A stretch of DNA of 56,459 nucleotides from Prochlorococcus sp. AG-315-B03 (GTDB lineage: Bacteria; Cyanobacteriota; Cyanobacteriia; PCC-6307; Cyanobiaceae): NCBI GenBank assembly GCA_003283745.1, contig QBWA01000004.1, positions 1 to 56,459 on the forward strand, written 5' to 3'. Under the pieces are notes generated by a model that was not told the DNA's origin, made no database searches, and saw nothing but the letters and a program-made list of their open reading frames with translations. The stretch's first letter is position 1. Every line of letters starts with the position of its first letter. Shown here piece after piece: positions 44,076-47,908 of the stretch. The translations under genes were made by a program, and so were the position numbers.

Positions 44076-44930
44076 TTAAAGTTGATTATTTAGGAGCTTT
44101 CTATCTCTATTTAGCTTTCCACTAATTAAACCTTCTAAATCAATACTTACTGAAGTAAAACCTATAGATAAAAAATAATTGATAATTTCTTCTTTTTGAA
44201 CACTTTGTAAGAAGTTCTCTATTTCAGCTTGGGGTAATTCTATTCTTCCTGACAATCCCTGACTTCTAACCCTTACTCTTTTAAAACCTAGATTGATTAT
44301 CCATTCCTCAGCTAGAGCTATTTGTTCAAGTCTTTTTGAACTGATTTCTTCTCCGAAAGGAATGCGAGAGGCTAAACATGGCTGTGCAGGTTTATCCCAC
44401 CAAGGTAGGCCTAATGCTTTAGAAATTGAACGAATGGATTTTTTATTGATTTCCAGTTCAGCCAGAGGTGATCTTGCTCCAGCCTCATTTGATGCATGAA
44501 TTCCAGGACGAAATTCTTGAAGGTCATCATGATTAACACCATCAAGCACTTGAGCATTGTTGGACTGTATAGAAATTTCTTTTAGATACTTGTGCAGTTC
44601 TTTTTTGCATGCATAACATCTATTCTCAGGGTTTTTATAGTAGTTAGGTATTTTTATTTCATTGGTTTGGCATTCTTCATGACGAATACCTATCCATGAC
44701 GCTTGTTGACGAGCTTGTTTTAATAAATATGGAGCTAAAGAGGAAGAAACGCCTGTGATTGCAAAAGCTTTTGATCCTAATTGTTCTTGAGCAATACTTG
44801 CTACTAATGAACTGTCTACTCCTCCTGAGAAAGCAACACAAACATTTTCAAAAGCTTTAATAAAATCTCTCAATAAATACAATTTTTTGAGATCTGATTT
44901 TGATAAAGATTCAAGTTGGCTAAAAAACAC
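44076..44930 (-). CDS. larE: LarE-type ATP-dependent sulfur transferase
   Basis: PP-loop enzyme that in lactobacilli sacrifices its own cysteine sulfur to build the nickel-pincer cofactor of lactate racemase. The PP-loop is VAFSGGVDSSLVA (residues 32-44). The sacrificial cysteine is kept: PAQPCLASRIPFG, C185. A further ENRCYACKKELH pair may bind a metal. 284 residues is normal. It starts at GTG 44930 (MFFSQLE). No larA, larB or larC is next to it, so its role here is open; similar proteins could act in other thiolation reactions. Confidence 0.87.
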   Translation of the reverse strand: MFFSQLESLSKSDLKKLYLLRDFIKAFENVCVAFSGGVDSSLVASIAQEQLGSKAFAITGVSSSLAPYLLKQARQQASWIGIRHEECQTNEIKIPNYYKNPENRCYACKKELHKYLKEISIQSNNAQVLDGVNHDDLQEFRPGIHASNEAGARSPLAELEINKKSIRSISKALGLPWWDKPAQPCLASRIPFGEEISSKRLEQIALAEEWIINLGFKRVRVRSQGLSGRIELPQAEIENFLQSVQKEEIINYFLSIGFTSVSIDLEGLISGKLNRDRKLLNNQL

Positions 44931-44988: not shown

Positions 44989-46215
44989 ATGTATGTTGGA
45001 TATTCTATGACGTCTAATACAGAAGAAGTTAAGTTGCATTCAAAAGGATTGAAAGTATCTCAAGTGGTATCTAAAGGTATAGGAATTACTACGGCATCAG
45101 ATGGATTAGAACGTAATCATGGGCAATTACATATATATGATGGAGAAGGTAAGGGTAAAAGCCAAGCAGCTCTTGGAGTCGTTTTAAGAACAATTGGTCT
45201 TGGTATCTGTGAGAAAAGACAAACAAGAGTGCTTCTTCTTAGGTTTTTGAAAGGTCCTGGCCGTTCTTATGATGAGGATGCTGCTATAGAGGCTTTGCAG
45301 CAAGGCTTTCCACATCTTATTGATCAAGTAAGAACTGGCAGGGGTGAATTCTTTACAACTGATGAAGCTACAAAATTTGATATTCAGGAGGCTCAACGAG
45401 GTTGGGACATTGCTAAGGGTGCTATAGCTAGTGCGCTTTATTCAGTCGTTGTATTAGATGAACTTAATCCCGTTCTTGAACTTGGATTATTGACTGTTGA
45501 AGATGTTGTGAAGACACTTACTTCAAGACCACCTGGTATGGAAATAATAGTTACTGGAAGAGCAGCTCCAATACCTCTAATTAAAATTGCTCAACTTCAT
45601 TCTGAGATGAAAGCTCATCGACGCCCCGAAATAAATGATGAGGAAATATTTTTTGAAAGAAATATAGATGGAATTGAGATTTATACTGGAGAAGGAAAAG
45701 GAAAATCAACAAGTGCTTTAGGAAAAGCTTTACAAGCTATTGGCAGAGGCATAAGTCAAGATAAAAGTCATCGTGTATTAATTTTGCAATGGCTTAAAGG
45801 TGGTAGCGGTTATACAGAAGATGCTGCTATTGCAGCTCTTAGAGAGAGTTATCCTCATTTAGTTGATCACCTTCGTTCTGGTAGAGATGCAATTGTATGG
45901 AGAGGTCAACAAATGCCTATCGATTATGTAGAAGCGGAGAGAGCTTGGGAAATAGCAAGAGCGGCAATTTCTAGTGGACTTTATAAGACAGTAATTTTGG
46001 ATGAATTGAATCCAACTGTTGACTTGGAATTACTCCCAGTGGACCCGATTGTTCAAACATTGCTTCGCAAACCTTCAGAGACGGAGGTTATTATTACAGG
46101 TAGATGTAAAAACCATCCAGCATATTTTGATTTAGCAAGTGTCCATTCTGAGATGGTATGTCATAAACATTATGCAGAAAAAGGAGTCGATTTAAAAAGA
46201 GGTGTTGATTATTAA
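44989..46215 (+). CDS. Tandem CobO/BtuR-like P-loop protein (two cob(I)alamin adenosyltransferase-type domains)
   Basis: 408 residues made of two homologous halves. Each has a Walker A GEGKGKS (residues 52-58 and 234-240), a following LLLRFLKG or LILQWLKG strand, a GRG or GRD loop, VVLDELNP or VILDELNP (Walker B), and VTGR or ITGR near the end. This is the CobO/CobA family, usually 170-200 residues and one domain. Cobalamin adenosylation or a related nucleotide reaction is the likely role. Starts are ATG 44989 or ATG 45007 (MTSNTEEV). Divergent from larE. Confidence 0.86.
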   Translation: MYVGYSMTSNTEEVKLHSKGLKVSQVVSKGIGITTASDGLERNHGQLHIYDGEGKGKSQAALGVVLRTIGLGICEKRQTRVLLLRFLKGPGRSYDEDAAIEALQQGFPHLIDQVRTGRGEFFTTDEATKFDIQEAQRGWDIAKGAIASALYSVVVLDELNPVLELGLLTVEDVVKTLTSRPPGMEIIVTGRAAPIPLIKIAQLHSEMKAHRRPEINDEEIFFERNIDGIEIYTGEGKGKSTSALGKALQAIGRGISQDKSHRVLILQWLKGGSGYTEDAAIAALRESYPHLVDHLRSGRDAIVWRGQQMPIDYVEAERAWEIARAAISSGLYKTVILDELNPTVDLELLPVDPIVQTLLRKPSETEVIITGRCKNHPAYFDLASVHSEMVCHKHYAEKGVDLKRGVDY

Positions 46216-46222
46216 TTCCAGT

Positions 46223-47377
46223 TTATTTTGCTTGATTCCAAGCCTCTATTCCTCCTTCAATATTGATACTATTTATTCCAAACTTCTCTAAATATTTGAC
46301 TGCTCTAATTGAGCTCTTCCCAGTTTTACAGCAAATGTAAAGATCATAATCGGTCGAATTATTTTGGATTTGATCAAGTACCTCTCCACTTTCAATTTTA
46401 TATAGAGGTATTGACTTGGATCCTGGTATCGAACCTTCTAAAAATTCTTTTAAGTTACGAACATCTATGATTGATATCTTTTCTGGTTGTTTATTTAGCA
46501 ATAATTTAAGATCTTTTACAGAGATACTTTTTATTTTTGAACTGACATTGGCTTTATTTTTTGAGTTTATATTAGAACAGAATTTATCATAATCTATAAG
46601 CTTATGTATTGTTTTATTTGCTGGATCAGGTTTTAATGTTAGCTCTCTGAAGCTCATCTTTAGAGCATTAAAGATCAATAATCTTCCGTTAAGCGGCTTC
46701 CCGATTTGCGTAATTATCTTGATAGCTTCTGTTGCTTGAATTGTACCGATTATGCCTGGCAAAACACCCATAACTCCAGCTTCAGAACAAGATGGAATCA
46801 ATTCTAGTGGAGGTGGTATTGGAATTAAATCTCTATAGTTAGGACTTTCTCTAGTTAGATTAAAAACACTAGCTTGCCCTTCAAATCCTGCAATAGATCC
46901 ATATACATAAGGCTTACCTAGGATTGTGGAAGCATCATTTATTAAATATCTAGTTGGAAAGTTATCTGAACAATCACAAATGACATCATAATCATTAATT
47001 ATATTTAAAGCATTATTTTGGGTTAGTTTTTGGTTGAATAAATCGATTTTACAAAAAGGGTTTATCTTGAGGAGATGTTTTTTAGCTGAATCAGTTTTTT
47101 TTGTGCCAATTGAAGTTGTTCTATGAATTATTTGTCTTTGCAAGTTAGAATCTTCTACTAAATCAAAGTCAACTATTCCAATACGTCCGATTCCTGCAGC
47201 CGCAAGATAAATTAAAAGCGGAGAGCCAAGCCCTCCTGTTCCAATAGTTATAACTGAACTATTTTTGAGTTTTTTTTGTCCTTTTAGTCCTATTTCAGGA
47301 AGACTTAAATGTCTTGCATACCTTGAAACTTCTTCAGGCGTCAGATTTACTTTCTGATCATTTTCTCCCATTATCAA
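46223..47377 (-). CDS. moeB: E1-like adenylyltransferase with C-terminal rhodanese domain (MoeB/MoeZ type)
   Basis: Activates the C-terminal glycine of small sulfur-carrier proteins (MoaD/ThiS type) and passes sulfur on. The N-terminal E1 domain has GTGGLGSPLLIYLAAAG (residues 46-62), D70 at the end of IGIVDFD, and the candidate cysteine C197 in IPSCSEAGVMG. The zinc CxxC pairs of E. coli MoeB are absent, which I recall as common in cyanobacterial members. The rhodanese domain begins near residue 285, with its active-site loop at CCKTGKSS (C350). It lies 18 bp after a JAMM peptidase gene on the same strand. Confidence 0.9.
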   Translation of the reverse strand: MIMGENDQKVNLTPEEVSRYARHLSLPEIGLKGQKKLKNSSVITIGTGGLGSPLLIYLAAAGIGRIGIVDFDLVEDSNLQRQIIHRTTSIGTKKTDSAKKHLLKINPFCKIDLFNQKLTQNNALNIINDYDVICDCSDNFPTRYLINDASTILGKPYVYGSIAGFEGQASVFNLTRESPNYRDLIPIPPPLELIPSCSEAGVMGVLPGIIGTIQATEAIKIITQIGKPLNGRLLIFNALKMSFRELTLKPDPANKTIHKLIDYDKFCSNINSKNKANVSSKIKSISVKDLKLLLNKQPEKISIIDVRNLKEFLEGSIPGSKSIPLYKIESGEVLDQIQNNSTDYDLYICCKTGKSSIRAVKYLEKFGINSINIEGGIEAWNQAK

Positions 47378-47395
47378 AATCTTTCATGATGTAGT

Positions 47396-47908
47396 TTACG
47401 TTAAAGAGAAAAACTCAACTTTCACATTATGAAAGCTATCTTTATTCTCAATCCACCATGCTTTTAAAGAACCATGTCTATCAGCTATAACCATAAGACC
47501 AGGTGAGTGGTGCCATAGTAAATCAATTTTGGAAGGTATGTTGTTACCTAATGGATGAGAGTGTGCGCAACATAGAATTTCAAGATTATATTTTCTTGCC
47601 CATCGTTGAGCTGCAATTTGATCTTTAGCATCTATTTCAAAACGATTTCTTTTCGATAAAGGGTTTAAATTTTTCTTTTTTCTCAAATCTATTTTTGGCT
47701 CACATAACCTGGAATTAGATTTTTTCCAGACATTAGAACATTGCCAAGAATTTTTTATTTCCCAAAAGTTCTTTTCTTTATTATCTAGCGAAGTTCTTTT
47801 GTTCCCAATTAAGATTGCACATCCTTCCTGAGGTTCTACTGCTTTTAAGTTTTCACATAGGAAAAGATGGCAGTTGTTATGGAATTCGATATGTTCAGGA
47901 ATTTTCAT
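47396..47908 (-). CDS. JAMM/MPN metallopeptidase
   Basis: Zinc isopeptidase-like protein of 170 residues. The full JAMM signature is present: E28 (QEGCAILIG), H116 and H118 in HSHP, S126 and D129 (SKID), spaced H-x-H-x7-S-x2-D. Prokaryotic members often sit beside E1-like enzymes and trim C-terminal extensions of sulfur-carrier proteins, as described for the CysO-processing type. Here the next gene on the same strand is the E1/rhodanese protein, with an 18-bp gap. No carrier protein gene is adjacent. The middle section (residues 40-88) is lysine-rich and variable. Confidence 0.88.
   Translation of the reverse strand: MKIPEHIEFHNNCHLFLCENLKAVEPQEGCAILIGNKRTSLDNKEKNFWEIKNSWQCSNVWKKSNSRLCEPKIDLRKKKNLNPLSKRNRFEIDAKDQIAAQRWARKYNLEILCCAHSHPLGNNIPSKIDLLWHHSPGLMVIADRHGSLKAWWIENKDSFHNVKVEFFSLT

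Follow-up and report, generated by a model that had tools for sequence, protein, structure and literature searches.

The 56,459-nucleotide stretch of Prochlorococcus sp. AG-315-B03 DNA analysed here (the window) contains adjacent genes for a JAMM metallopeptidase and for an E1-like enzyme with a rhodanese domain. This pair probably serves to mature and activate ThiS, the sulfur carrier of thiamine synthesis. The sequences of relatives point in this direction: their ThiS usually carries extra residues after the terminal glycines, and among near-complete genomes with a single carrier this cap is found only together with the peptidase gene.

The gene pair of the window

The open reading frame coordinates agree with the initial annotation, which had described two genes 18 bp apart on one strand (Table 1). 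An alternative ATG start of the E1 gene lies two codons inside, at 47371, and gives a gap of 24 bp; in two close relatives the gap is 23 bp. Such short spacing is consistent with one transcript. In the cyanobacterial family of the window, an open reading frame with the JAMM motif was found at most 250 bp upstream of E1 in 37 of 52 E1 loci, in a selection that deliberately took in JAMM-less genomes, and the adjacency is therefore more than chance. The other 15 loci belong to 13 genomes without a detected JAMM and to G013 and G029, where the intact E1 lies away from JAMM.

Table 1 Positions of the features of the window that are discussed in the text
Feature	Position	Strand	Remarks
JAMM/MPN+ peptidase (Prok-JAB, PF14464)	47396..47908	(-)	170 aa, start ATG; open reading frame list, Pfam
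E1-like adenylyltransferase + rhodanese domain, MoeZR type	46223..47377	(-)	384 aa, start TTG as listed
Intergenic gap JAMM/E1	47378..47395	(-)	18 bp, between open reading frames as listed
Cobalamin adenosyltransferase	44989-46215	(+)	Two tandem CobA/CobO domains (two Pfam stretches; PRK07413)
LarE, ATP-dependent sacrificial sulfur transferase	44076-44930	(-)	TIGR00268, 285 bits; two genes from E1

The peptidase matches Prok-JAB with an E value of 2.5e-16 and 60 bits, against a curated Pfam cut-off of 25. The E plus HxHx7SxxD motif is present, with E28, H116, H118, S126 and D129 intact as previously annotated, and these five residues are invariant across 33 aligned JAMM sequences. The AlphaFold2 model (pLDDT 82.7, pTM 0.76, residues 64-74 below 50) has the MPN fold, and its top Foldseek matches are PfJAMM1 and chains of the BRISC and proteasome-lid complexes, with a probability of 1.00. 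The best solved match to the model is PfJAMM1 bound to SAMP2 (5lda, Foldseek E 3.5e-8, 20% identity), which is also the closest solved structure by sequence (E 6.6e-6). PfJAMM1 binds a ThiS-like carrier; it is, however, archaeal, and the structure entry names a deubiquitinating enzyme homolog. We propose that the 170-aa JAMM may be a ThiS-uncapping peptidase.

The E1 protein contains ThiF (E 5.5e-76) and rhodanese (E 1.2e-13) domains, both over the curated Pfam cut-offs. The residues that the initial annotation had called intact (GTGGLG, C197 and rhodanese C350) are all present in the translation: GTGGLG stands at residue 46, Cys197 within PSCSEAG, and Cys349 and Cys350 within ICCKTGKSS. In proteins of the MoeZR type, according to the available part of PMC3227635, NYRD replaces the first CXXC and the second CXXC is missing. 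The translation of the window gene reads ESPNYRDLIP and has no CXXC anywhere, so that GxGGxG, ThiF, a C-terminal rhodanese domain with its Cys, NYRD and the lack of CXXC are found together. The protein is proposed as a candidate ThiS-activating and sulfurating enzyme.

The candidate sulfur carrier

The initial annotation had found no carrier next to the pair and placed it elsewhere. PF02597 and the ThiS profile likewise gave no carrier in or near the window, or in the whole 56%-complete assembly of its genome (957 kb, 61 contigs); the genome's own ThiS is outside the assembly. The carrier was therefore sought in relatives. At least one PF02597 carrier is present in 94 of the 94 family genomes of at least 90% completeness, and small family genomes usually have a single one, which is a true ThiS. 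Five ThiS tested (three capped and two uncapped) score 69-77 bits with the TIGR01683 thiS equivalog, for a cut-off of 37. The thiE gene is on the same strand as thiS in 59 of 61 loci (distinct ThiS, locus length at least 2.5 kb), often with an overlap of 4 to 11 bases. The thiS gene is outside the JAMM operon, and the carrier is thus not clustered with the JAMM gene. Taken together, the missing carrier of the JAMM/E1 pair is most likely the thiamine carrier ThiS, whose gene lies next to thiE, away from the pair.

Cysteine, thiamine and molybdopterin synthesis had all been named as possible destinations of the sulfur; for the small genomes, most with a single PF02597 carrier, thiamine stands and the list is narrowed to it. 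A molybdopterin partner in small genomes was rejected: the two MoaD-like proteins read (G002 and G125) end in SGG and are uncapped, and 21 near-complete genomes have only one PF02597 match. A 91-aa carrier was also rejected as the capped partner, its best-scoring 30 loci all terminating in AVAGG.

ThiS caps in relatives

The end of ThiS was read in all 136 family genomes with a ThiS profile match, of 151 searched; G105 was dropped because a contig edge truncates its thiS, which leaves 135. ThiS extends past the terminal GGG in 116 of these 135 genomes. The cap is a single S in 88 of the 117 family genomes with JAMM, and the other family caps are SYS, SYSELN, SLY, A, C, N, T, F, DSP, GPP, FLES, HLP, HLPPLEP, LSPGRWRRT and longer tails. 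All five near-complete congeners of the window are capped (SYS in four, SYSELN in one). Among 20 named Prochlorococcus records with a similar ThiS, 19 have SYS and one has SYSSLILNK; JAMM was detected in 16 of these 20, and of the other four, three are without E1 and one has only an E1 fragment (46% identity, with a stop), so that these four were not taken as counter-examples. From these relatives we infer that the window's own ThiS is likely to be capped.

A carrier with residues after the GG, as anticipated by the initial annotation, is thus borne out in relatives, where the ThiS beside thiE usually ends in GGG plus a cap. The proposed search for MoaD/ThiS-like proteins with such extensions found extended ThiS to be common, and the family does not show the opposite outcome, all carriers ending in GG.

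In the genus g9 (L157, L158, L159, L163, L165) the ThiS caps are 3 to 22 residues long and mutually dissimilar, and the preceding GGG is constant, as expected for a discarded tail. Of the solved ThiS chains, 1tyg_B, 1f0z_A and 2cu3_A terminate at the GG(G) position; 2k5p_A and 2lek_A continue 8-9 residues beyond the GG position, residues that may be purification tags.

Co-occurrence of the cap and the peptidase

ThiS is capped in 109 and uncapped in 8 of the 117 family genomes with JAMM, versus 7 capped and 11 uncapped among the 18 where JAMM was not found (Fisher p 3.5e-7, genomes not independent). When only the 11 JAMM-less genomes that have a full E1 are counted, one is capped and 10 are uncapped (Fisher p 2.0e-9, the genomes again not being independent). 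Strains with E1 and no JAMM, which the initial annotation had singled out as a possible objection should they give the same products, do therefore exist, and where their ThiS is readable 10 of 11 are uncapped. In near-complete genomes with one carrier (completeness at least 98%, exactly one PF02597 match, n=21), the separation is complete: 18 of 18 with JAMM are capped and 3 of 3 without JAMM are uncapped (p 7.5e-4).

Seven capped family genomes have no detected JAMM. Five of these are also without E1 and one has an E1 cut at the contig start; the JAMM locus is probably unassembled in these six, because E1 is missing or cut as well, and they were not retained as counter-examples. The seventh is G021 (90% complete), which has a capped ThiS and a full E1. 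The flanks of the usual JAMM locus, searched with queries from G013, a different genus, were not found in G021, and its E1 is at another place, convergent with a 90-aa MoaD/SAMP1-like carrier (L434, G021:C26).

In the rest of the class, beyond the family, caps occur in 6 of the 46 JAMM-bearing genomes read and in 0 of 19 without JAMM, a difference that is not significant (p 0.17). Of these 19 genomes, 14 have no PF14464 match and five have weak ones that were judged not to be this JAMM, although two narrowly exceed the cut-off; another twelve genomes of the class that carry JAMM fall outside this reading, as does G311. Since eight family genomes and 40 of the 46 read outside the family keep JAMM with an uncapped ThiS, JAMM must do something else in such genomes.

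A possible model for this other role is the mycobacterial pathway of Mec+, CysO, CysM and MoeZR, where, according to the available text of PMC3227635, a peptidase and a MoeZR-type E1-rhodanese act on a GG carrier and Mec+ frees cysteine from CysO. If the JAMM of the window worked like Mec+, it would hydrolyse an amino acid (cysteine or similar), added by a PLP enzyme, off a CysO-like carrier, and the E1-rhodanese would recharge that carrier. This would explain the persistence of JAMM beside an uncapped ThiS, all eight such family genomes having two to four PF02597 matches, and it agrees with the uncapped end of the 91-aa carrier in its 30 best-scoring loci. It also agrees with the gene order in the Synechococcus-like genus g9 (JAMM, E1-rhodanese, ThrC-like PLP enzyme and the 91-aa carrier ending in AVAGG), a layout close to the mycobacterial pathway as far as the available text describes it. 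A CysO-like carrier with a PLP enzyme is, however, found in g9, and four of the five near-complete congeners of the window have a single PF02597 match, ThiS; the fifth, G056, has a second match. Moreover, 18 near-complete genomes retain JAMM with a single PF02597 match, seen to be ThiS in G029, G052, G071, G110 and G123 and assumed to be so in the rest, and G080 (98% complete), with an uncapped ThiS, has a match of the length of the 91-aa carrier (C243) and no JAMM. We consider a Mec+-like function of the window's JAMM unlikely.

In g9 itself, the row was noted in L074:2073-5701, where all four genes were read, and also in L075-L077; the 91-aa carrier is MoaD/SAMP1-like, and the PLP enzyme was named ThrC-like by eye from its sequence. 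This row is a possible carrier-dependent amino-acid pathway in cyanobacteria.

Tree tests and genome streamlining

The relatedness of the genomes was taken into account with a quick E1 gene tree, in which 27 of 50 inner branches are poorly supported and to which G013, G021 and G029 contribute relocated E1 copies. The tree implies at least six changes in JAMM and eight in the cap. A model in which the two traits depend on each other beats the independent one (LR 25.2, p 4.7e-5, 49 tips), and LR is 25.8 without G021. The well-supported branches give only four independent pairs, of which on average 2.6 are concordant, none is opposed and 1.4 show no difference, too few for a sign test; this count codes G105 as uncapped, and the Fisher and correlated-evolution tests leave it out.

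These results bear on the explanation that a general protease removes the cap and that JAMM is unrelated to it, the co-loss reflecting genome streamlining only. The JAMM losses do include a whole streamlined clade (g18), in which many tips share one event, and well-supported independent pairs are few. Against this, an uncapped ThiS accompanies the losses in g4, g11 and g17 as well as g18, the tree test favours dependence of the two traits, and 13 of the 20 JAMM-less genomes queried retain E1 at full length, which shows that the operon was not lost as a whole. We find streamlining alone quite improbable as the explanation.

Decayed and relocated loci

JAMM pseudogenes with in-frame stops occupy the JAMM position in G016 and G088, and ThiS ends at GGG in both. 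The G016 copy has lost the HSHP motif, and that of G088 can be aligned over only the first hundred or so residues. The G088 contig is shared with the uncultured Prochlorococcus record AG-435-K18, which leaves room for single sequencing errors; sequencing error is unlikely to be the full account of the pseudogenes because there are several lesions per gene. In both genomes the stop after GGG is immediately followed by a second one, an arrangement found in none of the 62 S-capped genomes looked at. From the sequence, this second stop could be the old ThiS stop. The tandem stop is present in only 2 of the 19 uncapped thiS genes looked at, the other 17 being without it, and the codon of an S cap is TCC or TCT, which differs from the tandem stops by two changes; both points count against a simple story of uncapping.

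The opposite arrangement is found in G013 and G029, where JAMM is kept although the E1 copy next to it is broken; the intact E1 is at another site, and ThiS is capped. JAMM is thus retained together with the cap even where the neighbouring E1 is not. The loci concerned are L433 (G013:C17), L434 of G021, and G029:C20 and C9. The pattern in G013, G029 and G021 suggests replacement of E1, perhaps along with a carrier.

Short stop-bearing matches to the start of JAMM in G080 and G105 (E 4e-4 and 8e-6) carry no weight here, and matches in G116 and G135 (E 0.004 to 0.03, 11-23 residues, at or before a start codon) were rejected as JAMM remnants. In the pseudogene search the query L308, which is over-long, gave matches that run antisense to an adjacent gene, and these were disregarded.

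Proposed function

In E1-rhodanese enzymes, the E1 domain adenylates the carrier and the rhodanese persulfide converts it to the thiocarboxylate, and the thiocarboxylate of ThiS is the sulfur donor for the thiazole of thiamine. On this background, ThiS would be made with at least one residue after the terminal GGG, which would block its carboxyl end, as read in relatives and presumed for the window. The JAMM metallopeptidase would then cut after the last glycine and free it. The E1 domain would adenylate the freed glycine, the persulfide of the rhodanese domain (Cys349/Cys350 region) would convert it to the thiocarboxylate, and this would supply the sulfur for the thiazole. Where a genome with one carrier has an uncapped ThiS, the peptidase would become dispensable and its gene would decay, as the co-loss suggests. 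A plausible history is that JAMM first served the 91-aa carrier, that ThiS then became capped, and that streamlined lineages may have kept JAMM for ThiS only, until uncapping made it expendable.

Relation to known systems

The available text of PMC6006322 describes two capped carriers of Streptomyces platensis, PtmS2 (GG-MV) and PtmS3 (GG-C), that work with the JAMM protein PtmS1, whose deletion abolishes the product, and cites QbsD as exposing the GG of a capped carrier. The thioplatensimycin system (PtmS1/PtmS2/PtmS3/PtmS4) resembles the one proposed here, to the extent that this text covers it, in having a JAMM, an activating enzyme and GG-capped carriers, one of them capped by a single residue. 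It differs in that it makes a thioacid natural product and has JAMM clustered with the carrier, whereas here the carrier is the ThiS of primary metabolism, encoded elsewhere with thiE. QbsD/QbsE/QbsC differ in serving a siderophore pathway (thioquinolobactin) with a dedicated carrier, in place of thiamine. Relatives of the window thus share the capped carrier with QbsE/QbsD and PtmS2/PtmS1 but not its clustering with JAMM, and by analogy JAMM and ThiS would work like these pairs and not be members of their gene clusters.

The gene pair itself is listed in the accessible part of Iyer et al. 2006 (PMC1779556, Table 1 row 4b), where E1-rhodanese and JAB form an "uncharacterized operon" of cyanobacteria, Prochlorococcus marinus among them. 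In that part, the authors suggested that JAB might release the C-terminal end of ThiS or MoaD when either is fused to another protein, reported JAB to be completely absent from thiamine pathways, and for this reason predicted a ubiquitin-like mechanism for JAB-associated E1s. The caps found here are, in contrast, on stand-alone ThiS and point to thiamine. The corresponding reading, in which E1 attaches ThiS to target lysines and JAMM removes it, as for archaeal SAMPs, has the parts that such a system needs (precursor, E1 and JAMM) and the fold match to PfJAMM1 with SAMP2 on its side, and is highly improbable given a carrier that is the thiamine ThiS beside thiE, an E1 whose rhodanese domain is a hallmark of sulfur transfer, and no E2 family match among the seven neighbourhood proteins scanned. 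A ThiS that is a ubiquitin-like pro-modifier, matured by JAMM and stripped by it from targets, so that one carrier would serve both thiamine synthesis and reversible tagging, deserves very little credence.

Among the matches listed from the open-access literature, with subscription journals mostly outside its scope, no paper was found on capped ThiS or on the JAMM/E1 pair in thiamine synthesis. If the proposed function is correct, it gives a role to two genes that the 2006 survey listed as uncharacterised, and places a JAMM peptidase in a pathway from which that survey reported JAB to be completely absent. A step of vitamin B1 synthesis in abundant marine phototrophs would then depend on a maturation protease, and lineages with a decayed JAMM and an uncapped ThiS would be natural knockouts. 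The case further suggests a way for one carrier to take over the peptidase of another during genome shrinkage.

The surroundings of the pair in the window include LarE and the cobalamin adenosyltransferase (Table 1). A neighbourhood of SpeD, LarE, CobO, CAAD and an FN3K-like gene was seen again, by eye, in several relatives that have lost JAMM.
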